A stretch of DNA of 64,000 nucleotides from Sutcliffiella sp. FSL R7-0096 (GTDB taxonomy: Bacteria; Bacillota; Bacilli; Bacillales; Bacillaceae_I). This document shows, piece after piece, positions 10,995 to 22,563 of this stretch. Where the stretch lies: NCBI RefSeq assembly GCF_038595065.1, contig NZ_CP152003.1, positions 4,568,001 to 4,632,000 on the forward strand, written 5' to 3'. Positions within the stretch are counted from its first letter, which is position 1; each line of letters opens with the position of its first letter. The notes below the pieces were generated by a model that was given only the letters and a program-made list of their open reading frames with translations, was not told the origin of the DNA and searched no databases. The position numbers and the translations under genes were made by a program.

Positions 10995-13900
10995 ATGAGT
11001 AAGAGTAGGGCGAGCGTTTGGCTTAAGTTGTTGTTAGTTTGGGTCTTGGTTTTGGGGAGTTTTCCTTCTTATGGAAATGCAACGGAAGAAGGTACAAGAG
11101 TAAGTGGGACGTTGACGGAAGATACGACTTGGACGAAGGCGGGCTCGCCGTATCGTTTGGTTGGAAATGTGACGATTCCAAGAGACTTGAAATTGACCAT
11201 CGAACCTGGTGTAACGGTTGTTGGTGAAATCGGAGTATTGATTCATGTATACGGAAAACTATTTGCCCTTGGTAATGAAGAAGAGAAGATAACGATTGAT
11301 ACTGCGTATATCCAAAGTCTTTCTCTTCCAGAAACACTTGTTCACCTCGAACATGCAAACGTCACCAGGGAATATAAAGGTGGTTTTCTATTAACAGGTT
11401 CGCAACTATATTTAGATAACAACCAATTTTCGAATGGGTCGATTTCTATCAGCATCCCGAAAATGATGGAGCCTACTATTACGAATAACATTTTTCACGA
11501 TAATGCTAAGCTAGATGTTACGCTTGGCAGTAAGAATACTATCATTAATAGCAACACATTCATAAGTTCAGAAGAGACGACTAGTTCAAAAATTAAAGTG
11601 TATTGTGGGAAAGATTGCACATCAGAATTATTATTTTCCAGAAATAATTTTTTCGGATTTCACGAAAGAGCATTTTTTGAAGTGAATAGTAACAATGTAA
11701 TGACGATTGAAGGATCTAATAATTATTGGGGAACGACAGATGAAACATTGGCGTCAAGATATATTATTGATGTCGAAGATAATAGCGGTTTTCGTGCGAA
11801 ATTAGCGATGGATCCGATTTCCTATAAACCGAACAACTTGGGGCACCCCCTTGGTGAGCTGATGGCTCCAATCGTTCAACCAATAGGGAATAGTGATGAA
11901 GCGATTGTCGGTTTGACTGATGCTGATAGTTTAGTAGAGGTATGGAATGACCGGGTAAAAATGGGAGAAAGCCTATCAAGAGCCGATGGAACTTTTTCAG
12001 TGCCTATTCCAAAGCAACGAGACGAAGCGGAATTAAAGATCGTTGCGGTTGATAGCTTTAACAGGATGAGTCAAGAGGCTACTATTGTTGTGATGGATAC
12101 AAGTCCCCCAGAAGCCCCTATCGTAAATGAAGTGACAGATGCGATGGACGTGATTACGGGAACAGCGGAGCCTACAGCGAAGATTCGGGTATTTCGTGGA
12201 GAAAGTGTATTAGCGGAAGGCGATGCGGATGAAAATGGTCGTTTTAACTTATACATCGGCCAGCAAAAAGCCGGTACCACATTGGAAATTCAGGCGGAAG
12301 ATACGGCAAAAAATAAAAGTAAGCGAACCATCGTTGTCGTAAAAGATGTAACACCACCTGAAACTCCACAGCTTTTGGAGGAAATAACTGATGCGACAAA
12401 TTATATCGAGGGAACAGCGGAGCCGGGTTCAACGATCATCGTACGAACAGCCACGGAAGAGCTTGCCCGTATTTCTGTCCAAAACAGTGGTTCATTTGAG
12501 AGTTATGTTGCTAAACAAAAAGCTGGGACTATCATTGAGGTCATTGCAATAGATGAAGCACAAAATGAAAGTCAACAACTTATTGTGGAAGTGAAGGATG
12601 TTACCCCTCCTAATCTTTATGTGTATCCATTAGGGGACAATATGAATTCCTTATATGGAATGACCGAAATTGGTGCGACAGTGACAATAGTGAAGAACGG
12701 TATTACATTAGGGGAGAAAGTTGTAAGGGATAGCTACGAATTTCAAATGGATATCCCGAGACAAATGGCAGGAACCAAATTAACGGTAACTTCTAAAGAT
12801 CCTGCCGGTAATGTGGCAACTGTCAATGTAGAGGTGGTTGATTTTACCCCTCCCGGAAAACCAGTAGTAGATGTGGTCACGGATAAAAGCAGTGTGGTGA
12901 CAGGGAAAGCGGAGCCATTATCAACAGTGGAAATTTTAAAGGGATCTTCTTTAATAGGTGCGGGTGAAGTAGCAGAGGACGGTTTGTTCTCGATTCCAAT
13001 TGCCGTTCAAAATGCGGGCACCGTGTTAACCATCCGTGCAAAAGATGCTGCAGGAAATGTGAGTCTCTTAACGAATGTGACGGTAAAGGATGTAACACCT
13101 CCCGCAGTGCCCCAAGTAAATAAAGTGACAAATAAAACTACAGAAGTTACTGGTAAGGCGGAAAAAAGCTCTACCGTAACCGTGAAAATCGGGACAAAAA
13201 GCTATTCTTCCAAAGTGGATGCAGACGGTAACTATAGTGTTGGCATACCAGTGCAAAACTCTGGTACGACCATATCTGTGACAGCAAAAGATAGCGCTGG
13301 CAATGTGAGTGATGGGAAGTCTGTGACGGTTTCAAGAGTTGCGCCTAACATGCCTACCGTTAATAGTGTGAGCAATAAGGCTTCTACCGTGAGCGGGAAA
13401 GCAGAAAAGAGCTCCACGGTCACGGTGAAAATCGGAACGAAAAACTATACAGGAAAAGCGGATAGTTATGGTGATTTTAAGATTACCATACCTGTGCAAA
13501 ATGCGGATAAAACTCTTTATGTAACAGCTACAGATAAAGATGGTAAGGTGAGTGCCAGTCGCACAGTTACGGTGAAACGGGTGGCACCGAATATGCCGGT
13601 GGTGAATAAGGTGACGAATAAAGAGACCGTCGTTTCTGGTAAAACGGAAAAGTATGCAACGGTTTCGGTGAAGATCGGAACGAAAACATATTCCAAAAAA
13701 GCGGATGTGGATGGAAACTATAAAGTAACGATACCGGTACAAAACGCTGGAACAAGCCTAAAGGTCACGGCAAAAGATAGCGCAGGTGCAATAAGTGCTA
13801 CTAGGACAGTGAATGTAGAGAGGGTGGCTCCAGATGTCCCGGTCGTTAATGCAGTAAAAACTACTTCAACAAGTGTCACAGGTAACGCGGAGAAAAATTC

Positions 13901-14066
13901 GACCGTAACAGCAAAGATCGGGACGAAATCTTATTCGGCCAAAGTGGATGCATATGGGAAGTTTAAAATAACCATCCCAAAACAAAAAATAGGCACTGTC
14001 ATCAAGGTAACGGCGAAAGACTCGAAAGGTAACGTAAGTGCCACTAGAGAAATAAAGGTAACGTAA
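10995..14066 (+). CDS. Secreted protein with parallel-beta-helix-like N-terminus and nine Ig-like repeats
   Basis: A 1023-residue exported protein. Residues 1-29 are a signal peptide (KLLLVWVLVLGSFPSYGNA). Residues about 35-285 resemble a right-handed beta-helix (TEDTTWTKAGSPY, NNYWGT). From about residue 288 there are nine repeats of about 80 residues of the bacterial Ig type, joined by DVTPP or RVAPNMP linkers and carrying GKAEKSSTVTVKIGTKSYS, DADGNY and AKDSAGNVS motifs; the last four are closest to each other. No LPXTG, SLH or choline-binding anchor is visible, so it is released or held to the wall by another means. GAGGAATTAGG upstream decides the start. Possibly an adhesin or wall-associated protein; function unknown. 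Confidence 0.85.
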   Translation: MSKSRASVWLKLLLVWVLVLGSFPSYGNATEEGTRVSGTLTEDTTWTKAGSPYRLVGNVTIPRDLKLTIEPGVTVVGEIGVLIHVYGKLFALGNEEEKITIDTAYIQSLSLPETLVHLEHANVTREYKGGFLLTGSQLYLDNNQFSNGSISISIPKMMEPTITNNIFHDNAKLDVTLGSKNTIINSNTFISSEETTSSKIKVYCGKDCTSELLFSRNNFFGFHERAFFEVNSNNVMTIEGSNNYWGTTDETLASRYIIDVEDNSGFRAKLAMDPISYKPNNLGHPLGELMAPIVQPIGNSDEAIVGLTDADSLVEVWNDRVKMGESLSRADGTFSVPIPKQRDEAELKIVAVDSFNRMSQEATIVVMDTSPPEAPIVNEVTDAMDVITGTAEPTAKIRVFRGESVLAEGDADENGRFNLYIGQQKAGTTLEIQAEDTAKNKSKRTIVVVKDVTPPETPQLLEEITDATNYIEGTAEPGSTIIVRTATEELARISVQNSGSFESYVAKQKAGTIIEVIAIDEAQNESQQLIVEVKDVTPPNLYVYPLGDNMNSLYGMTEIGATVTIVKNGITLGEKVVRDSYEFQMDIPRQMAGTKLTVTSKDPAGNVATVNVEVVDFTPPGKPVVDVVTDKSSVVTGKAEPLSTVEILKGSSLIGAGEVAEDGLFSIPIAVQNAGTVLTIRAKDAAGNVSLLTNVTVKDVTPPAVPQVNKVTNKTTEVTGKAEKSSTVTVKIGTKSYSSKVDADGNYSVGIPVQNSGTTISVTAKDSAGNVSDGKSVTVSRVAPNMPTVNSVSNKASTVSGKAEKSSTVTVKIGTKNYTGKADSYGDFKITIPVQNADKTLYVTATDKDGKVSASRTVTVKRVAPNMPVVNKVTNKETVVSGKTEKYATVSVKIGTKTYSKKADVDGNYKVTIPVQNAGTSLKVTAKDSAGAISATRTVNVERVAPDVPVVNAVKTTSTSVTGNAEKNSTVTAKIGTKSYSAKVDAYGKFKITIPKQKIGTVIKVTAKDSKGNVSATREIKVT

Positions 14067-14174: not shown

Positions 14175-14744
14175 CTAAACCCCGCACCGCCACAAATCAG
14201 GGTTACCCACGGAGATAGCTAAAGCGCCAGCTTTTAGGGATTCATGGATTTCGGTTTCATTTTCGATAAGTCCGCCGGCGATAATGGGCGTGGGGAATGT
14301 TTCGGTTAGGTTGTAGATGACTCGCGGCATGATGCCTGGCAGGACTTCGACTGCATCGGGTTGGGATGTTTCGACCATTCTTTGGCCTTTTTTGATGGCG
14401 TTGTGATCGATCAGGAAGAGGCGTTGGATGGTATTCAGGCCCTCTTCCTTTGCGAATTTGATCAGGTGGTTCTTGGTGGTGATGATTCCTGTTGGTCGAA
14501 GGACTTGGGCGATGTATTGGATGCCGCTTTTATCATTTGATATGCCTTCGATGAAATCTAAATGGAGGAACACGTACATGCCTGTTTGTTTTAGTTGCTT
14601 TATGTAGTCTGGGAGTGTAAAGATAGTGCCGGTTAAGAGGAAGGCGATGTTCGCTTTGCTGTTTATGGCTTCCTGGATCTTTTCAGGTGCGTCTATTGCT
14701 GCAATCACTTGTGAATCAACCATGTCTACGATATTGATAGCCAT
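14175..14744 (-). CDS. glpP: Glycerol-3-phosphate-responsive antiterminator GlpP
   Basis: A 189-residue RNA-binding regulator. In B. subtilis GlpP with bound glycerol-3-phosphate prevents termination in the leaders of glpD, glpFK and glpTQ (established). Family marks are IAFLLTGTIFTLPDYIKQLK, VFLHLDFIEGISNDKSGIQYI, IITTKNHLIKFAKEEGL, QRLFLIDHNAI, DAVEVLPGIMPRVI and PIIAGGLIENETEI. It is the last gene of an ABC-transporter operon whose leader carries a terminator hairpin; the divergent GDPD gene has a similar leader. This arrangement implies that GlpP controls its own operon. It starts 17 bp after the phosphatase gene. Confidence 0.93.
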   Translation of the reverse strand: MAINIVDMVDSQVIAAIDAPEKIQEAINSKANIAFLLTGTIFTLPDYIKQLKQTGMYVFLHLDFIEGISNDKSGIQYIAQVLRPTGIITTKNHLIKFAKEEGLNTIQRLFLIDHNAIKKGQRMVETSQPDAVEVLPGIMPRVIYNLTETFPTPIIAGGLIENETEIHESLKAGALAISVGNPDLWRCGV

Positions 14745-14761
14745 CTTTTTACCTTCCTTTC

Positions 14762-15547
14762 TTATACTTCTACTTTGAGTCTTGGAATCTCTTTAATGCT
14801 GTTGAGGATGTAAGTAGGCTGGGCTAGGTTTGAGTTGATGCTTGTTTTTTCCGTTATTCCTGTCAGCACCAGGATCGTTTGCATGCCCACGTCATTTCCC
14901 ATTTTGATATCTGTTTCCAGCCTGTCCCCAACCATGATACAGTCTTCAAGGTCCATGTTCAGATGATCTGCCGCGACCTGTGCCATGATTCGGGATGGTT
15001 TCCCGATGATCGTTGATATGACGTCCCCTGTCGCGCCTTCAATCGCTCCGATAATGGCTCCGCAGTCTGGAATCTGCCCTCCAGGAACCGGACAGGTGCG
15101 GTCCGGGTTGGTCGCAAGGAAGCTGGCTCCGTTTTTCCAAGCGAGAAAGGCCTGCGTCAGTTTTCCGTAAGTGAAGTCCCTATCCCATGACACTAGTGCA
15201 TACGTTGCCTTTGTGGGGTCATGGGTGATGGGCACCTCCATCATATCCAGTTCCTCATATAAGGGGGATTCGCCGATTACCCATACTCTCTCATCCGGCT
15301 TCATGACTTCCTTTAAGTATTTGGCAGTAACGTAGCCTGAATTGATAATTTCATAGAGTTCCACGTCGATGCCCATTTTTTCTAGTTTTCTTTTGTAAGC
15401 CAGTCTTGAATTGGCAGGGTTATTGGAGAGGAAGACTACTTGGTCTCCCCTCTCTTTTAACAGTTGGATGGTTTCTGCTGCGCCTTCGATTACTTTATCC
15501 CCAAGGTAAACAGTGCCGTCGAGGTCGAAAATATATCCTTTTTTCAT
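14762..15547 (-). CDS. HAD-superfamily (class IIA, NagD/AraL-like) sugar-phosphate phosphatase
   Basis: A 261-residue cytoplasmic phosphatase. Motif I is FDLDGTVYLGD near residue 6, motif II FLSNNPANSR, the class IIA cap carries ALVSWDRDFTYGKL and ATNPDRTCPVPGG, then IGKPSR (motif III Lys) and MVGDRLETDIKMGNDVGM (motif IV). Relatives dephosphorylate small sugar or polyol phosphates. Its place between a GlpP gene and the transporter suggests a glycerol phosphate as substrate, which is inference. ATG 15547 with AGGTGG eight bases upstream is preferred to a GTG at 15559. Twelve bp separate it from the permease gene. Confidence 0.85.
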   Translation of the reverse strand: MKKGYIFDLDGTVYLGDKVIEGAAETIQLLKERGDQVVFLSNNPANSRLAYKRKLEKMGIDVELYEIINSGYVTAKYLKEVMKPDERVWVIGESPLYEELDMMEVPITHDPTKATYALVSWDRDFTYGKLTQAFLAWKNGASFLATNPDRTCPVPGGQIPDCGAIIGAIEGATGDVISTIIGKPSRIMAQVAADHLNMDLEDCIMVGDRLETDIKMGNDVGMQTILVLTGITEKTSINSNLAQPTYILNSIKEIPRLKVEV

Positions 15548-15559
15548 TCCCAACACCAC

Positions 15560-17326
15560 CTAGTACAAGGAATTCCTTGAGATTTTTGTTGCAAGGAATT
15601 GCAGGAAGAGCACGATGACAATGATGAGAATGGCCATGGCAGAAGCGGTATAGACCTCTCCCCGGAGTAGATTCTGGAATACGACTAAACTCATCGGTGC
15701 CCAGCTTGATGGCGCCATAAGGATCGTGATACTCGTTTCCTTGATGACTGTTACAAACACAAGGATGGATCCAGCGGCAATCCCAGGTAGCATCAATGGA
15801 CCAATGACGGTAATGATGGCCAAAAGCCTGGAAGCCCCAAGGTTGATGGATGCTTCTTCAATGTCCGGTTTGATGGACATCATCGTCCCCATCGTGGATC
15901 GGATCATATATGGCATACGTCGGATCGCATAGGCAATGATCAAGATTGTTGCTGTTCCTGTCAGTTGCAATGGTGCTGTATTGAAGGTCTGGATATAGGC
16001 GATACCAAGTGCGATTCCAGGTACAATTAGCGGAATGGAGGACATAAAGTCCAGCTTTGCGGCATTTTGTCGCACCACAAAGTAAGAGACAAGTGTCGAT
16101 ACCACTACACTGATACCAAGTGCACCAATGGCAAGAATGATCGAGTTCATGATGTTACTCGTTGATCTCGAGAAAATTGTCCGGTAGTGATCCAATGTGA
16201 ATCCTCTTGGGAGAAGGTCAGCTCCCCAAGTGGTCGCAAAGGATTGCATCAGTACGGAAAGGACTGCTAGCAGCGGGATGGAAATAATGAACCCTGTGTA
16301 GACAGTCAATCCTGTTGTTACCCATTTGTTGTCGTTTAGCTTGATGGCTTTCGGTTTGCCAGATAAGGTTCCATAATTCATCTTCTTTGTGATTTTTCGT
16401 TGTATCCAGAAGAAGACCCCAGCTACAAGGACCATTACTACAGTTAAAATGGAGGCCCCTGCCCAGTTGAAGAATCCGGAAATTTCTCGGTAGGCTTCCA
16501 CCACTATGAGATTAAGCCCTTCAGGTGCCAAGATGATTGGCGTACCGAAATCGGAAAAGCTTACAGTGAAAATCAGCAAAGCACTTGAGATGATACCAGG
16601 AATTGCAAGCGGGAATGTCACAAACACCAAGCTCATCCAGCTGCTTGAACCAAGGTTTTGGGATGCTTCCTCCAGGGAAATATCACTCAATTTGAATGCA
16701 GCAACCATCGGCCACAGGGCGAATGGGAAAAAGAAGAAAATTTGAACCAATACAATTCCAAGCATGGAATAGACATTGAACAAGACGCCGCTTCCACCGA
16801 GCTCCTGATAGATCGTATTGACCCATCCGGTCCGGCCGAACATGATGATGAAGCCTGCAGCGGAAATAAAGGTCGGGACGATGATCGGCATCGTACATAG
16901 GGCTGCAAATGTTTTTTTGAAAGGCATGGTTGTCCTAGCAAAGCCATAGGCTATCGGGATGCAGAGAAAAATGACTAACGTGGCCACCCCAAGGGATAAG
17001 GTTAAACTATTAGTGAGCGCTTTAAAGTATGTACCCCCGGACAAAAGCTTTTTGTAGTGATCAAGTGATGCATTAGAGAAACGCTCTATATTGGTTGCGA
17101 GTATATCAGGATTGACGAGAGAGCCGAGTATATTTACCGGCGCGCCTGTGAAACTGACAAGGAAAACTGATAGTAATGGAAGCACCAAAAAGAGTGTGAA
17201 AAACAGGATGACCAGAAGCTTCATAAAGAATAGGCCATCCATTTTCTCAAAAATGGAACGTCTCTCTTTTTTAGGAGAAGGCGGCTGGATTTGGACCTTC
17301 AATGGATCCTGCATTTCTGGCTTCAT
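15560..17326 (-). CDS. ABC importer permease with two fused permease domains
   Basis: A 588-residue integral membrane protein with about twelve hydrophobic segments and two copies of the binding-protein-dependent permease domain, each with an EAA loop: LEEASQNLGSSSWMSLVFVTFPLAIPGI in two parts near residues 215-240, and IEEASINLGASRLLAIITV near 500. Fused two-domain permeases of this kind occur in the iron(III), thiamine and 2-aminoethylphosphonate importer class. The gene overlaps the end of the ATPase gene by four bases (ATGA). Context with GlpP, a phosphatase and a secreted GDPD suggests a phosphorylated glycerol compound as cargo rather than iron; inference. Confidence 0.88.
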   Translation of the reverse strand: MKPEMQDPLKVQIQPPSPKKERRSIFEKMDGLFFMKLLVILFFTLFLVLPLLSVFLVSFTGAPVNILGSLVNPDILATNIERFSNASLDHYKKLLSGGTYFKALTNSLTLSLGVATLVIFLCIPIAYGFARTTMPFKKTFAALCTMPIIVPTFISAAGFIIMFGRTGWVNTIYQELGGSGVLFNVYSMLGIVLVQIFFFFPFALWPMVAAFKLSDISLEEASQNLGSSSWMSLVFVTFPLAIPGIISSALLIFTVSFSDFGTPIILAPEGLNLIVVEAYREISGFFNWAGASILTVVMVLVAGVFFWIQRKITKKMNYGTLSGKPKAIKLNDNKWVTTGLTVYTGFIISIPLLAVLSVLMQSFATTWGADLLPRGFTLDHYRTIFSRSTSNIMNSIILAIGALGISVVVSTLVSYFVVRQNAAKLDFMSSIPLIVPGIALGIAYIQTFNTAPLQLTGTATILIIAYAIRRMPYMIRSTMGTMMSIKPDIEEASINLGASRLLAIITVIGPLMLPGIAAGSILVFVTVIKETSITILMAPSSWAPMSLVVFQNLLRGEVYTASAMAILIIVIVLFLQFLATKISRNSLY

Positions 17327-18447
17327 AGCAATAGCACCCTCTCCGGATCCACTGTCACCTTTACCATTTCCCCACTTGTTAAAATAGGGTCGCCTGGTAC
17401 GTATACATGTTCAATGGCAAGCTCAGCGTTGCCCACCTTAACATCGTAACGGATGTTGGAACCTAAATAAGTATGAAGAAGTACTTTTCCTTCCATGACG
17501 TTTCCATGCATGATGTCCTCGCTTATCCGGTGAAGCTTCATGCCTTCTGGACGGATAAGGACTTTCACATCTTTCTTCGTGGTCTGTGCAGAAGAATGTA
17601 GTGTCCAATCTCCTATTTTCACCACAGTCCCTTTTTCATCAGAGCCGACTATCGTTCCGTCAAAAATGTTGGAAGACCCTACAAAGTCCGCGACAAAGGT
17701 GGAACGCGGGTTACTGTATAGCTCTGTTGGCGTGGCAACCTGGATGATTTCCCCGTCTTTCATGACGGCGATCCTGTCTGCCATGCTCATGGCTTCTTCT
17801 TGGTCATGGGTGACGAAGATGGTGGTGATGCCAACATCCTGCTGGATCCTCCTGATTGTGGTCCTCATGGTATTGCGAAGCTTTTTATCCAGGTTGGAAA
17901 GTGGCTCGTCCATCAGCAAAACAGAAGGCTCCAACACGAGTGCCCTGGCAAGTGCGACACGTTGTTGCTGCCCGCCTGACAGTTCATTCACTCCACGCTC
18001 GGATAGATGGCCAAGCTCTACATAGTCCAGTGCTTCCAACACTTTTTTCTCTACCTCTTTGGAAGGCTTGGCAAGTCTTTTGCTGATCAGCCTTGCAAAA
18101 CTATTGATCTTTTTGGAAAAACTTCCTGTATTAAAGTCTCGGACGGTTAAACCATAAGCGACATTTTCAAAGACATTATAATGAGGAAAAAGAGCATAAC
18201 TTTGAAAGACCATCCCGCAATTCCTTTTGTTAGCAGGCAGTTTATTGACTACTTTGTTGTTGATATAGATGTTTCCAGAAGTAGGATTTTCAAATCCGGC
18301 GATACAGCGCATGGTGGTTGTTTTCCCACACCCTGAAGGGCCAAGAAGGGCGAAGAATTCGCCTTCTTGGATATCAATATTCACGTTTTTCAGAGCTGTC
18401 ACATCATTATATTTTTTGATTAATCCATCTACCTGTACTGAACCCAT
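17323..18447 (-). CDS. ABC importer ATP-binding protein
   Basis: A 374-residue ATPase: Walker A GPSGCGKTTT near residue 37, Q-loop MVFQSYALFPHYNV, signature LSGGQQQRVALARAL, Walker B LLMDEPLSNLDKKL, H-loop IFVTHDQEEAMSM, and a C-terminal TOBE-like region (LIRPEGMKLHRI). An insertion after the Q-loop (about 100-130, NTGSFSKKINSFARLISKRL) is longer than in most PotA/FbpC-type ATPases. It drives the neighbouring fused permease. GGGGAG precedes the ATG. It lies 220 bp after the binding-protein gene; that gap holds a repeat element. Confidence 0.9.
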   Translation of the reverse strand: MGSVQVDGLIKKYNDVTALKNVNIDIQEGEFFALLGPSGCGKTTTMRCIAGFENPTSGNIYINNKVVNKLPANKRNCGMVFQSYALFPHYNVFENVAYGLTVRDFNTGSFSKKINSFARLISKRLAKPSKEVEKKVLEALDYVELGHLSERGVNELSGGQQQRVALARALVLEPSVLLMDEPLSNLDKKLRNTMRTTIRRIQQDVGITTIFVTHDQEEAMSMADRIAVMKDGEIIQVATPTELYSNPRSTFVADFVGSSNIFDGTIVGSDEKGTVVKIGDWTLHSSAQTTKKDVKVLIRPEGMKLHRISEDIMHGNVMEGKVLLHTYLGSNIRYDVKVGNAELAIEHVYVPGDPILTSGEMVKVTVDPERVLLL

Positions 18448-18478
18448 ATGATTATCTCCCCGTCTGTCTTTAGATTGG

Positions 18479-18663
18479 CTGTTTTCGTAAGCTTTGTTGC
18501 TTTTTCGTATTATCCACCTAACCGTTATATTCCTTACTGTCGTGCTCTTTTCCCTGTTTTTCTGTATAGTCTACTTGCTTATTTTAGAGCAGGTAAGAGG
18601 ACAAAAAGTCTAAATGCCGACTTTTTGCTAGTGGTTAGCAACAATCTTTTAGAAAAGAGCCTT
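18479..18663. repeat. Interspersed repeat, copy A (between binding-protein and ATPase genes)
   Basis: Begins TTTTCGTAAGCTTTGTTGC and contains TCCTTACTGTCGTGCTCTTT with CCC shortly after (18531-18554), then AAAAAGTC. The same order of segments occurs at 35328-35460. The right end GCAACAATCTTTTAGAAAAG is an imperfect inverted copy of the left end, so the whole looks like a small element with inverted ends. A short hairpin AAAAAGTC / GACTTTTT (18603-18626) lies inside it. It interrupts the transporter operon and may modulate expression of the downstream genes. Confidence 0.65.
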
Positions 18664-18666
18664 AGA

Positions 18667-19689
18667 TTATTGGAATTTCTCTCTCCACTCGTTACGTACG
18701 CGGTCATAGTTTTCGACTACCCAGTCGATATCAAGATCCATGGCATTGTCTTTGAGTCCTTCAAGCGTCAGTGGTGATTTACCTTCCACCTCTGGATGCA
18801 TCGGGATATGGAACCAATCCGCTTTGATTTGCTGTCCTTCCTTGGAAAGCATGAAGTCTACGAATTTCTTTGCGCCTTCAGGGTTAGGTCCATCCTTCAC
18901 GATAGAAACAGGGTTTACTAGAATAGGTGTATTCTTTGGAATGTGGAAATCAACGGATTCCCCACGGTCTTTCATTTGGTAAGCCATAAAGTCAAAGCCG
19001 ACTCCAATGGATGCTTCCCCAGAAGCTACAGCATTGGCAGGAGCTCCACCGGAATCCGGCATTGCATTTGTCTGTTGAACCAACTTCTCAAAGTACTCCC
19101 AGCCTTCCTCTTCGCCTTTTTCCATCAGTTGGCTAAGCACTAACAGTGTTGCTGTTCCTGATGCTGCAGGGTTTGGAATCTGTAATTCCTTTTCCCATTT
19201 GGAGTCTAATAGATCATCCCATGTTTCCGGTAGATCTGCTTCATCCACTAGGTCGGTATTGTAGATCAGTCCAAGTACAAATACCTCCAAGCCAACCCAG
19301 TTCCAGTCTTCATGTCTTACTTTAATGCCGTTCTCATATACTTCCCAGTCTTTCACGGATTCCGGTGTGTAGCTTTCAATGAAGCCATGTTTAATCGCGG
19401 ATTCAAACGGAAGGATTCCTCCACCGCCATACCACAGATCACCTTGTGGATTGTCCATTTCGGCAATCATCTGGTTAACAAGAATATTCGTTCCAGCATA
19501 TTGTACGTTTACTTTTCCACCAGTTGCTTCTTCAAACGCTTCTGCAAGTTCACGGGTCATATCAGGTGTTTCCGGTGAATACAAGGTTACTTCGCCAACA
19601 CTTCCATCAGAAGAGCTAGAGTCTGATCCACAGGCTACAAGCCCTACGCTCAACACTAGTGCCATCAAGATTAATAATGTTTTCTTCAT
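18667..19689 (-). CDS. ABC importer substrate-binding lipoprotein (family 1)
   Basis: A 340-residue extracellular binding protein. MKKTLLILMALVLSVGLVAC is a lipoprotein signal with lipobox LVAC. The mature part is of the iron/2-aminoethylphosphonate binding-protein type: EVTLYSPETPDMTRELAEAFEEATGG, GDLWYGGGGILPFESAIKHG, PNPAASGTATLLVLSQ and GFDFMAYQMKDRGESVDF. CGAGGGGGATT upstream fixes the ATG at 19689. It is the first gene of the GlpP operon, behind a leader with a terminator hairpin. The ligand cannot be read from the sequence; glycerol-phosphate esters are favoured by context. Confidence 0.88.
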   Translation of the reverse strand: MKKTLLILMALVLSVGLVACGSDSSSSDGSVGEVTLYSPETPDMTRELAEAFEEATGGKVNVQYAGTNILVNQMIAEMDNPQGDLWYGGGGILPFESAIKHGFIESYTPESVKDWEVYENGIKVRHEDWNWVGLEVFVLGLIYNTDLVDEADLPETWDDLLDSKWEKELQIPNPAASGTATLLVLSQLMEKGEEEGWEYFEKLVQQTNAMPDSGGAPANAVASGEASIGVGFDFMAYQMKDRGESVDFHIPKNTPILVNPVSIVKDGPNPEGAKKFVDFMLSKEGQQIKADWFHIPMHPEVEGKSPLTLEGLKDNAMDLDIDWVVENYDRVRNEWREKFQ

Positions 19690-19769
19690 AAATAATCCCC
19701 CTCGTAATTTTGTTTTAGCTGGCCAAAAGATTAGCAAAGTTAGTATTGTATACGCTTTCACCTCCAAGC

Positions 19770-19852
19770 AAAATAAAAAGAGAAACCACACAACGAAAGA
19801 AGCCTATAGCAGGCGCATCCGTTGAGGGTTTCTCTTATATTCTCTACCCAAA
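19770..19852 (-). promoter_or_regulatory. GlpP-type antitermination leader of the ABC transporter operon
   Basis: On the minus strand, TTGGGTAGAGA is followed by a hairpin with outer arms AAGAGAAACC / GGTTTCTCTT, middle arms CAACG / CGTTG and inner GCCT / AGGC, then TTTTTATTTTGC: an intrinsic terminator about 80 bp before the first start codon. A -10-like TATAAT lies just upstream (near 19875). The divergent GDPD leader has the same layout and the shared order GGG-Y-AGAGA - AGAGAA - ACCC ahead of its terminator. With glpP as last gene of the operon this is best read as a GlpP-controlled attenuator. Confidence 0.75.
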
Positions 19853-20124
19853 TTATTTTACTTTTCTAAATTATACAATAAATTAAAGTAGAAATATAGT
19901 GTAAGGAAGAATTTATTTGTAAAAGAGTTCAGTCCCTCACTGATGCATATAGCATTCTATATTTGATAGTGGTACATTTCGACATCCCTCGCCCTTCCCC
20001 TTCAAAAATCGGCAAATTAATTGAAAAATATTACTTTTGTAGGAGAAGATGGTTTATGAACATAGGTATAATTAATTATTGAGAAAATTCAAATAACTAT
20101 ATATAGTTTAAATTGTAAATGAAT

Positions 20125-20208
20125 AGTGGGCAGAGACACAGAGAAGAACCCCATAAAAGTCCTTATTGAATAAGGGTTTTCATGGTGGGCTCTTCTCTTT
20201 TATTTTGC
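20125..20208 (+). promoter_or_regulatory. GlpP-type antitermination leader of the GDPD gene
   Basis: GTGGGCAGAGACACAGAGAA is followed by a long hairpin: GAGAAGA (20141-20147) with TCTTCTC (20191-20197), inner CCCCAT / ATGGTGGG and CCTTAT / ATAAGG, then TTTTATTTTGCC. The terminator ends 30 bp before the GDPD start codon, so without antitermination the gene would be silent. In B. subtilis the glpTQ leader is a GlpP target (established), which supports this reading. Shares motif order and the TCTCTTTTATTTTGC end with the transporter leader. Confidence 0.78.
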
Positions 20209-20238
20209 CCTATTAATCTATCTTGAAGGAGGAATAAC

Positions 20239-22563
20239 ATGAAGAGGAAATCTTTTAAGCGTTTCGGAAGTATGGTCGTTTCGTCCGCACTAGCCCTTAG
20301 TTTGATAAACTTTCAGCCACAAATGAGCGTTCATGCCGAGCAGGATCATATGGAATTACTAAACGAAACATTTGATTCTATTTCAAATGGAGAATTGCCG
20401 GATAGCTGGGAGGTTGTTGTGGGTAATGGTGAAGTTCAAGATGGCAAACTTGTATTAAGCTCCCCTGCCACTGCCAGCCCATCAGTGGTAAAAGCGCCAA
20501 TCGATCCTGAGTATGGAGACTATACGATGGAGGCGGATGTAACGTTCCTCTCTTCTGTGAATGATGCACGCTGGGCTTCCATCATGTTCCGGATTCAAGA
20601 TGCCAATAACTATTATCAGTTTGCTGCCCGAAAAGGCACAAGCGCTTTGAATGGTTTGGAGTTTGCAAAAAGGCTTAACAACGCTTGGGCGGTTACTCAG
20701 ACGAATTTCTATCCCGTGAACTTTGAGTACAATAAGAGTTATCGCCTTAAGGTCGTGGTTAGTGGCAACAGGGTACAGCAGTTTGTGAATAATGAGCTGG
20801 TGATCGACACTGCGGATGCGACCGAATGGGTTAATGGTGATGTGGGGTTTCAAGTAAGTGGCTCCACTGTGCAGTTTGACAACGTCCAGGTCACTACATA
20901 CGATCAAGCTCTGCCACCTATAGAAGATTCCGGTGCCTTCCTTCCTGTTGAACCCGAAACCAATATCATTAACCCACCAACCATCATTACTGGCGCGGGG
21001 TATACAGGTGATGCAAGCCAAAGTGCTTCCAGCCTATTAGTGGTGGAACGCAATGCGGACGGGGAGTTAACAGCGAACGGGCTCTCTTTAAATGATCAAC
21101 TACAGCAGATGAAAAATAAAAAGATCCCTGTGTTGCAGGTGGAGCAAGCAGGATACGGGGAACAGATCATTCAAAGTCTGAATGCCACCCAGACAACGGA
21201 TGTTCATGTTGTTTCCTCTAATGCTGCGATCGTAGAGGAAATAAAATCCCTAAATCCTAAAATTCGTGGTGGATTGGTGTACACCGGAAACTCCTTGAAT
21301 AAGAATGACTTGCGGGAATTGCCATTCCAAGTGCATTCGAGTGAAAGCAAGGTTGTGTTAATCCCACAAAAATTACTGACGAAGGAGATCGTGCATTATC
21401 TGCATAATCGGATGGTTGCCGTTTGGGGGATTGGAGCAGATTCATTAAATTCCACGCATGAGCTTATCCATTTAGGTGTGGATGGAATGATTACAGATTA
21501 TCCGGAGTATGCTACGGAAGCGTTCAGTCAGTATCCAGAAAACACAATCGTTCAACGTCCTATGGTCGCTGCCCACCGCGGGGTCCCTTCCCTTGCTCCT
21601 GAAAATACGATGGTCGGTTACCGATTAGCGTACGATTTGGAGGCGGACATGATTGAGACGGACCTTCATGAAACAAAGGATGGCCATATCATCGTCATGC
21701 ATGATACGACCGTCAACCGTACCACAAACGGAACTGGCGCGGTAGCCAATTTGACGCTCGATGAGATTAAACAGCTTGATGCAGGAATTAAGTTTGGGGA
21801 GGAGTTTGCAGGGGAGCCTGTGCCGACCTTTAAAGAATTCCTTCAGGAGTTCAAAGGCAAGGATGTGGTGCTTCTGGTAGAATTGAAGGCCGCTGGGATG
21901 GAGGAAAAAGTGAATGAGGAAATCTTGGCAGAAGGTATGCTAGATCAGGTTGTCGTCCAAAACTTTAGCTTAGACAGCATGAAGATCTTCAACCAGTTAC
22001 AGCCAAACCTTGCAACAGGTTATTTATTCTCTGCCGCTGTCCCTGGATCCCTTCAAGCGAAATTGGATAATGCAAAGAAGCTTGTAGACTATGGAACTAG
22101 CGCAAACGTAACCCTTAATGCAAGTTATGGAAGTGTATATGAGGAGTTCCTTACTTATATGAGGCAACGTGGAATGTTAAGCATGCACTGGACGTTCCGG
22201 GAGGAAGATCCATTTGCGGACAAACTAAAAGAAGGCTTAATCGGACCAATTACCGATTACATGCAATGGCTGACGGAATCGCCTATCAGTCTTGAGTCAC
22301 CTATTAAGAAAGCAAATTTGAAAGTAGGCAAGTCCCGTAACATCCAGGCTAAGGCTTTCCTAAGTTACCGGACAGGTGAGAAAGTGAATATCGAGACGGA
22401 GCTTTATACTGTTGGAGATAATGGGGTAGTAAGGATTGAAGGAAATGAAATAATTGCATTGGCACCGGGTACGGCACAGGTGTTTGTAAAACACACCTTT
22501 ACGATGCTTGGGCAGGAGTGGAATTTGGTTTCGGAACCGATTGAGGTTAGGGTTTCGGAGTGA
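20239..22563 (+). CDS. Secreted glycerophosphodiester phosphodiesterase with LamG-like domain and duplicated GDPD region
   Basis: A 774-residue exported enzyme that should release glycerol-3-phosphate from glycerophosphodiesters, perhaps including teichoic-acid polymers. Signal peptide 1-33 (cut after SVHA). Residues about 40-220 resemble a concanavalin/LamG-type fold (ARWASIMFRIQDANNYYQFA). Residues about 240-430 look like a GDPD domain that lost its active site but kept GVDGMITDYPE. Residues 440-690 are the active GDPD: AHRG 445-448, APENT 453-457, IETDLHETKDGHIIVMHD. About 695-774 is an Ig-like tail. AAGGAGG precedes the ATG. The leader carries a GlpP-type attenuator, and the transporter operon is divergent. 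Confidence 0.9.
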   Translation: MKRKSFKRFGSMVVSSALALSLINFQPQMSVHAEQDHMELLNETFDSISNGELPDSWEVVVGNGEVQDGKLVLSSPATASPSVVKAPIDPEYGDYTMEADVTFLSSVNDARWASIMFRIQDANNYYQFAARKGTSALNGLEFAKRLNNAWAVTQTNFYPVNFEYNKSYRLKVVVSGNRVQQFVNNELVIDTADATEWVNGDVGFQVSGSTVQFDNVQVTTYDQALPPIEDSGAFLPVEPETNIINPPTIITGAGYTGDASQSASSLLVVERNADGELTANGLSLNDQLQQMKNKKIPVLQVEQAGYGEQIIQSLNATQTTDVHVVSSNAAIVEEIKSLNPKIRGGLVYTGNSLNKNDLRELPFQVHSSESKVVLIPQKLLTKEIVHYLHNRMVAVWGIGADSLNSTHELIHLGVDGMITDYPEYATEAFSQYPENTIVQRPMVAAHRGVPSLAPENTMVGYRLAYDLEADMIETDLHETKDGHIIVMHDTTVNRTTNGTGAVANLTLDEIKQLDAGIKFGEEFAGEPVPTFKEFLQEFKGKDVVLLVELKAAGMEEKVNEEILAEGMLDQVVVQNFSLDSMKIFNQLQPNLATGYLFSAAVPGSLQAKLDNAKKLVDYGTSANVTLNASYGSVYEEFLTYMRQRGMLSMHWTFREEDPFADKLKEGLIGPITDYMQWLTESPISLESPIKKANLKVGKSRNIQAKAFLSYRTGEKVNIETELYTVGDNGVVRIEGNEIIALAPGTAQVFVKHTFTMLGQEWNLVSEPIEVRVSE

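Follow-up and report, generated by a model that had tools for sequence, protein, structure and literature searches.

In Bacillus subtilis, a phosphodiesterase and the uptake of sn-glycerol-3-phosphate (G3P) through GlpT, an antiporter of the major facilitator superfamily, stand under the control of GlpP. Passages of two published accounts give the GlpP regulon as glpD, glpFK and glpT/glpQ (PMC9604022; PMC7430163), and one of them names both glpT and glpQ as targets and describes a promoter, a GlpP binding site and an inherent terminator in the 5′ untranslated region (PMC9604022). Two further systems have to be considered, namely the G3P importer UgpBAEC with UgpQ, whose task is similar to the one proposed below, and the hexose-phosphate importer AfuABC of Actinobacillus, whose AfuA is nearest among the binding proteins of solved structure (28% identity; fold comparison, E 3e-26). 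Here we describe a locus in Sutcliffiella sp. FSL R7-0096, a relative of Bacillus from soil (genome of 4.9 Mb, one contig), located in a 64,000-nucleotide stretch hereafter called the window, which probably encodes a GlpP-controlled scavenging system for glycerophosphodiesters built around an AfuA-like ATP-binding cassette (ABC) importer. It has in common with the B. subtilis regulon a GlpP family protein, the arrangement of the 5′ region and a phosphodiesterase gene as target, but differs in having the operon of an AfuA-like ABC importer as its other target and a linked GlpP from a distinct clade. It differs from Ugp in the families of its permease and binding protein, the permeases being separate in Ugp and fused here. 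GlpP antitermination of an ABC importer had been proposed for this locus in an earlier note on the same DNA; the observation is right, involves a separate GlpP lineage and is more general than a single locus, and its interpretation holds for the most part in outline, with the corrections given below. Among the literature matches listed, in which subscription journals are little covered, no title mentions GlpP control of an AfuA-like importer or a division of GlpP into two lineages, and a comparative study of Thermotoga states that it did not cover the GlpP regulon by comparative genomics (PMC3750489). The components are as follows.

14175..14744, minus strand: protein of the glycerol-3-phosphate responsive antiterminator family (GlpP, importer-linked clade), PF04309 7.6e-64
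14762..15559, minus strand: HAD-IIA (NagD/PGP-like) phosphatase, PF13344/PF13242, TIGR01460 above cut-off
15560..17326, minus strand: ABC permease with two fused BPD_transp_1 domains, PF00528 in two stretches
17323..18447, minus strand: ABC ATPase with TOBE domain, PF00005 and PF08402
18667..19689, minus strand: AfuA-like substrate-binding lipoprotein of the SBP_bac_6 family, start ATG 19689, PF13343 9.1e-34
19769..19836, minus strand: putative intrinsic terminator of the importer leader, from sequence and fold; full hairpin unlisted by the terminator consensus scan
19826..19849, minus strand: predicted GlpP-type antiterminator element of the importer leader, by pattern match; top hit in the window of the glpD-leader model described below (E 0.021)
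20128..20151, plus strand: predicted GlpP-type antiterminator element of the glycerophosphodiester phosphodiesterase (GDPD) leader, by pattern match; second hit in the window of the same model (E 0.39)
20140..20207, plus strand: putative intrinsic terminator of the GDPD leader, from sequence and fold; unlisted by the terminator consensus scan
20239..22563, plus strand: GDPD, probably secreted, with an N-terminal PF06439 domain; PF03009 7.7e-43

All the genes and both divergent leaders named in the earlier note were thus found in place, the five importer-side genes on the minus strand and the GDPD gene diverging from them on the plus strand. GlpP matches PF04309 over its full length (positions 1-173 of 173) at 214.7 bits against a curated cut-off of 27, and the PF03009 domain of the GDPD scores 147.8 bits against 23.6; secretion of this enzyme is borne out to the extent that its N-terminus, judged by eye, looks like a signal. 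The HAD-IIA gene more probably starts at the ATG near 15547.

The importer leader reads GGGTAGAGA-ATATA-AGAGAAACCC at 19849-19826 of the minus strand and the GDPD leader GGGCAGAGA-CAC-AGAGAAGAACCC at 20128-20151 of the plus strand, each being followed by a hairpin and then by TTTTATTTTGC. Both can form an AGAGA...GAGA stem-loop whose 3′ arm doubles as the 5′ arm of a strong hairpin, with a T-rich end next to it. Their folding surpasses that of dinucleotide shuffles, with z scores of -3.95 for the importer leader and -5.43 for the GDPD leader (0/200 shuffles as good in each case). Two patterns, GGGYAGAGAN{2,10}AGAGAA and GGGNAGAGAN{2,8}GAGAN{1,6}CCC, each match exactly twice in the whole genome, at the two leaders, and never when reversed; in 19.6 Mb of simulated sequence, searched on both strands, the first matched once and the second not at all. 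The pair of leaders with a shared motif order is therefore real, and the element is, as judged from its sequence, a stem-loop that carries two GAGA boxes and overlaps with an intrinsic terminator, as in GlpP-responsive leaders. At gathering scores, Rfam gave no match in the window and only a T-box in seven loci with related leaders, an ordinary T-box leader lying at L007:3154-3399.

The comparison with glpF and glpD leaders of the same genome and of other genomes, read individually, places both leaders in the glp kind, as previously claimed: in all of them, a stem of roughly 3-7 base pairs is followed by a first GAGA-type box and, after a few nucleotides, by a second one, then by the closing arm and a terminator. 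Covariation of the stem was evaluated in 34 leaders chosen by hand, near-copies and leaders whose core was missed by the script (e.g., L007 glpD, L040, L041) being omitted. Flanks pair better with their own partner than with exchanged ones (mean of 10.8 vs 8.1, with 0/5000 exchanges as high), in a test that ignores relatedness and in which a few best helices lie in another register (e.g., L050 GDPD, L063 glpD). When the 3′ flank of a single leader is shuffled, the score of its real stem is still reached in 31% of cases; individual leaders are therefore no proof, and the weight rests with the exchange test. A covariance model of glpD leaders from other genomes (11 rows, including one row of the same genus, L078, one of the same family, L073, two glpD leaders beside cassettes, L035 and L042, and the mutually similar L054 and L055) ranks the importer leader first and the GDPD leader second in the window. 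A covarying definition of the GlpP target in sequence and structure is gained in this way.

Orthologues of the binding protein (E 1e-50 or better, at least 63% identity where aligned in full) occur in 23 genomes, out of 397 from the order, that represent 11 genera, and in this genome only when 398 genomes were drawn across the phylum. The 23 cassettes comprise the ATPase (23), the permease (23), the HAD phosphatase (23), GlpP (22), a GDPD (14) and an adjoining glpD (3); importer, GlpP, HAD and often GDPD are thus kept together across the 11 genera. The sole cassette without GlpP, L053, lies on a 7.5 kb contig that ends within the binding-protein gene, and is for this reason uncounted among the leaders. 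Of the 22 cassettes that allow a judgement, 21 show a clear leader ahead of the binding-protein gene, 18 being recognized by script and three by eye (L040, L041 and L042, for which the script returned none). In the miss, L050, purine boxes and a terminator lie ahead of this gene, but a convincing closing stem is lacking. Five of the 14 GDPD genes have their own leader within 330 bases. At L046:4398-5012 the cassette GlpP matches family positions 1-145 only and may be frameshifted, and L012 (G005:C12) carries at its contig end a second, partial binding-protein gene (96% identical, residues 1-168).

The earlier note further held that glpP lies inside the operon for which it senses, and amplifies it. 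This arrangement exists here, with glpP behind the leader, but it is neither general nor unique. Among 22 cassettes, glpP is downstream of the leader on the same strand in nine, upstream in two and on the other strand in 11, and canonical glpF-glpK operons can also end with glpP (L007, L068, L080, L069). At L007:7108-12113 the order is glpF-glpK-glpD-glpP, with leaders before glpF and glpD, so that the presence of glpP in an operon under leader control extends beyond the importer and was discarded as a distinguishing mark.

GlpP itself is represented by three genes in this genome, of which one precedes glpK and glpD, another follows glpF-glpK-glpD and the third is the cassette-linked one, which has close relatives at named loci of Sutcliffiella horikoshii (two) and S. 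rhizosphaerae (one). A tree built from 55 GlpPs sets the 21 cassette-linked sequences, together with L056 and L081, apart from all 29 glpFKD-linked ones and three others across a long branch (support 100/100). After addition of 11 rows by a quick method, in which the placement of L081, a long row, is unsure, the same branch splits 30 importer-linked GlpPs (21 with this importer, nine with Ugp-like importers) from 36 others (SH-aLRT 100). The partial L046 was left out of the trees, and a partial GlpP before ugpC in L099 was too truncated by the region edge to be placed. The clades also differ throughout at individual positions: S178..G180 is found in 21/21 importer-linked GlpPs vs T..S in 29/29 canonical ones, and 24 positions are common to both at ≥95%, rows of other context and L046 being excluded from this comparison. 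By analogy with other TIM barrels, the S178..G180 loop may hold a ligand phosphate, which is our assumption. A divergent further GlpP occurs beside dihydroxyacetone kinase genes at L070:1251-1796 (Dak1) and L071:6758-7303 (Dak1, Dak2 and EIIA-man), and this neighborhood suggests a possible GlpP control of another triose pathway.

Nine other modules with a GlpP of the importer-linked clade have a Ugp-like importer, made of UgpB-, UgpA- and UgpE-related proteins that were identified by family scans for L056, L081 and one L100 protein and by tblastn for the rest. Eight of these modules are in genomes outside the 23 and one is in G128, which has both kinds. They were sought by eye, as UgpB near GlpP, and are at least nine examples and not a rate. 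A HAD of the cassette family accompanies 8/9, and in L081 the order is GlpP-ugpC-A-E-B followed by a GDPD gene. GlpP-type leaders stand before ugpB in seven modules and before ugpA in L100, and L081 has, by eye, an atypical leader before glpP. This exchange of importers is the best evidence for a glycerol phosphate compound as cargo. Five of the Ugp-type loci (L101, L102, L103, L104 and L106) carry three to five candidate GlpP-type leaders each, before ugpB, the HAD gene (three loci) and genes related to an LTD-domain protein, and these modules also involve MBL-fold and LTD proteins.

The binding protein was compared with solved structures by sequence and by fold (model of mean pLDDT 86.9, the predicted local distance difference test), the nearest being AfuA and VcA0625, which bind glucose-6-phosphate, and P5PA, which binds pyridoxal phosphate. 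According to passages on AfuA, the phosphate is surrounded by Ser37, Gly38, Thr60, Ser148, Gly149, Thr150 and Gly185, and single changes in the sugar-binding motif H205, D206 and E229 abolished binding (PMC4546632, PMC8427247). In a mapping that rests on a profile alignment, five of the seven phosphate positions are kept here, or are Thr as in P5PA (T67, S177, G178, T179, G214), and are invariant in 22/22 aligned binding proteins, as is the pair S213-G214. The sugar motif is replaced by F234, M235 and L257 in all 22, and Tyr103 of AfuA corresponds to E135. As the phosphate clasp is largely kept and the residues essential for sugar binding are replaced, the ligand is, on these alignments, likely to be phosphorylated but unlikely to be a hexose phosphate, and the protein, which differs from AfuA also by its location beside GlpP and glp-type leaders, was not filed as AfuA. 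The HAD-IIA enzyme scores 186.8 bits for PGP_euk, below the cut-off of 201.95, and its TIGR01460 match defines the family level only; its solved relatives include the glycerol-3-phosphate phosphatases 7PO7 and 4I9F, which are not the closest ones.

These relatives leave some room for the import of another organophosphate, such as a sugar phosphate or a phosphorylated polyol, that would be hydrolysed inside the cell by the HAD enzyme and be co-regulated by GlpP because its product enters glycerol metabolism. The glucose-6-phosphate and pyridoxal phosphate ligands of the nearest solved proteins would agree with it, as would the kinship of the HAD enzyme, which is closest to broad NagD/PGP phosphatases. 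We nevertheless regard it as unlikely, given the uniform loss of the three AfuA sugar residues, the adjoining GDPD in 14/23 cassettes and glpD in 3/23, and the Ugp-like importers that occupy the same place.

A second, slightly less probable alternative concerns the leaders, which may be real attenuators read by one of the two canonical GlpPs of the genome, the linked GlpP having another task. Both canonical proteins are indeed present, and the leaders share their core with glpD and glpF leaders. Against this, the strict GGG...CCC form occurs 23 times in 19/23 cassette loci and 12 times in 7/10 Ugp-type loci (the nine modules, L093 extending L056) and in 0/32 other glpP loci, and no GlpP other than the linked one was found in G102 and G356. 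It is conceivable, although we would not expect it, that two GlpP lineages have matched RNA targets, glpFKD leaders for one and GGG...CCC importer leaders for the other, and form separate circuits in one cell, in which the importer-linked GlpP, with S-x-G for T-x-S in its last loop, would sense the imported cargo, for example a glycerophosphodiester, and not G3P. With several paralogues in one genome, the two lineages provide a natural setting in which to test leader choice by an RNA-binding TIM-barrel protein.

Automatic annotation would name the transporter a 2-aminoethylphosphonate importer of the PhnS2/AepXVW class, which is very improbable. The best NCBIfam names are indeed PhnS2 (149.9 of 392.75 bits), PhnT2 (363.5 of 457.7) and, for the permease, PhnU2 (196.6 of 593.25), but all three matches are below the cut-offs. 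AepXVW is typically found beside phnWX or phnWAY, according to a passage of the relevant paper (PMC8316502), and no phosphonate-degradation gene was detected among the scanned neighboring proteins, in neighborhoods annotated in part only. The kinship with PhnS (4R6Y) is moreover weaker than that with AfuA. That the system imports iron(III), with GlpP adjoining by accident, is hardly credible: its general fold class and the FbpA/FutA structural neighbors would allow it, but Phe234 and Met235 are found in 22/22 where FutA1 has a Tyr-Tyr pair, which we take to hold iron (one Tyr aligned with Phe234, the other unaligned or inserted), and GlpP is within the cassette in 22/23 genomes. Both functions were rejected on the missed cut-offs, the absent Tyr pair and the weaker kinship with PhnS. 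Of the assignment to an iron/phosphonate class made in the earlier note, the ABC importer therefore stands and the class does not, the binding protein being nearer to the organophosphate-binding AfuA, P5PA and VcA0625.

In the reading that we prefer, that of a GlpP-controlled glycerophosphodiester scavenging system, the secreted GDPD would release G3P outside the cell from phospholipid debris, and G3P or an uncleaved diester would be captured by the AfuA-like lipoprotein and imported by the ATPase together with the fused permease. The cytosolic HAD-IIA enzyme would strip phosphate from the cargo or from excess G3P; the ligand of the binding protein and the substrate of this enzyme are, from their sequences, presumed ones. 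G3P would load a GlpP, presumably the linked one, which would then hold the AGAGA...GAGA stem-loop of the nascent leader, block the terminator and let the importer and GDPD genes be transcribed, and CcpA may keep the importer off when a better carbon source is present. The importer family, whose best database names are phosphonate importers, would thereby receive a probable substrate, and the Bacillales possibly a further route for glycerol phosphate beside GlpT and Ugp.

Several observations weigh against this reading. The earlier note counted on a single GlpP as sensor, a view that was abandoned; with two other GlpPs in the genome, we can only infer which of the three acts on the importer and GDPD leaders. 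G102, one of the genomes in which no other GlpP was found, carries a canonical glpD leader, and the two lineages may therefore share targets. Genome-wide, the glpD-leader model lists one glpD leader (1.5e-6), then a hit at 757751, rejected since it lies inside an ABC ATPase gene, and the importer leader at rank 3 (E 1.67), and it does not list the GDPD leader, the second glpD leader or the glpF leader of this genome; taken alone, this search lacks significance, and the model has little sensitivity. As regards the cargo, two of the seven AfuA phosphate positions are changed (Gly38 to N68, Thr60 to approximately G91), and kinship with AfuA is compatible with other phosphorylated compounds. For nine of the 23 cassettes, no GDPD was found in the fetched stretch. 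The UgpB-like proteins are all below the NCBI UgpB cut-off (0/338 genomes above), so that the substrate of the Ugp-like importers is itself a presumed one. Of 11 fetched regions with UgpB near GlpP, seven carry the importer-linked clade and four (L097, L098, L099, L105) a canonical GlpP beside glpF/glpK. Finally, the suggestion that the importer replaces GlpT is compatible with the data but was rejected as a proven point, since the TIGR00712 (GlpT) match occurs in 25/397 genomes and in 0/23 cassette genomes, with about 1.4 overlaps expected by chance.

Further candidate signals were located in the region between the divergent genes.

19747..19760, minus strand: cre-like CcpA site TGAAAGCGTATACA with one mismatch, from a motif search of upstream regions
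19870..19875, minus strand: TATAAT -10 box about 20 nt upstream of the importer-leader element, by eye; absent from the promoter scan hits
20079..20107, plus strand: promoter-like TTGAGA-17-TATAGT ahead of the GDPD leader, from the promoter scan, its position being the argument

The yield of the promoter scan is close to chance (16 sites found vs 14.3 expected). Upstream of the binding-protein gene, 17/22 cassettes have a cre-like site with at most one mismatch, vs 0.5 expected from single-base shuffles. The central CG is kept in only eight of these 17 sites, and the nine others are in or near the terminator hairpin. As sequence motifs, such sites would fit a role in carbon-source control. Next to the cluster, at 10995-14066 of the window, a protein of 1023 residues containing nine Big_6 (bacterial Ig-like) stretches is encoded, apparently unrelated to it.

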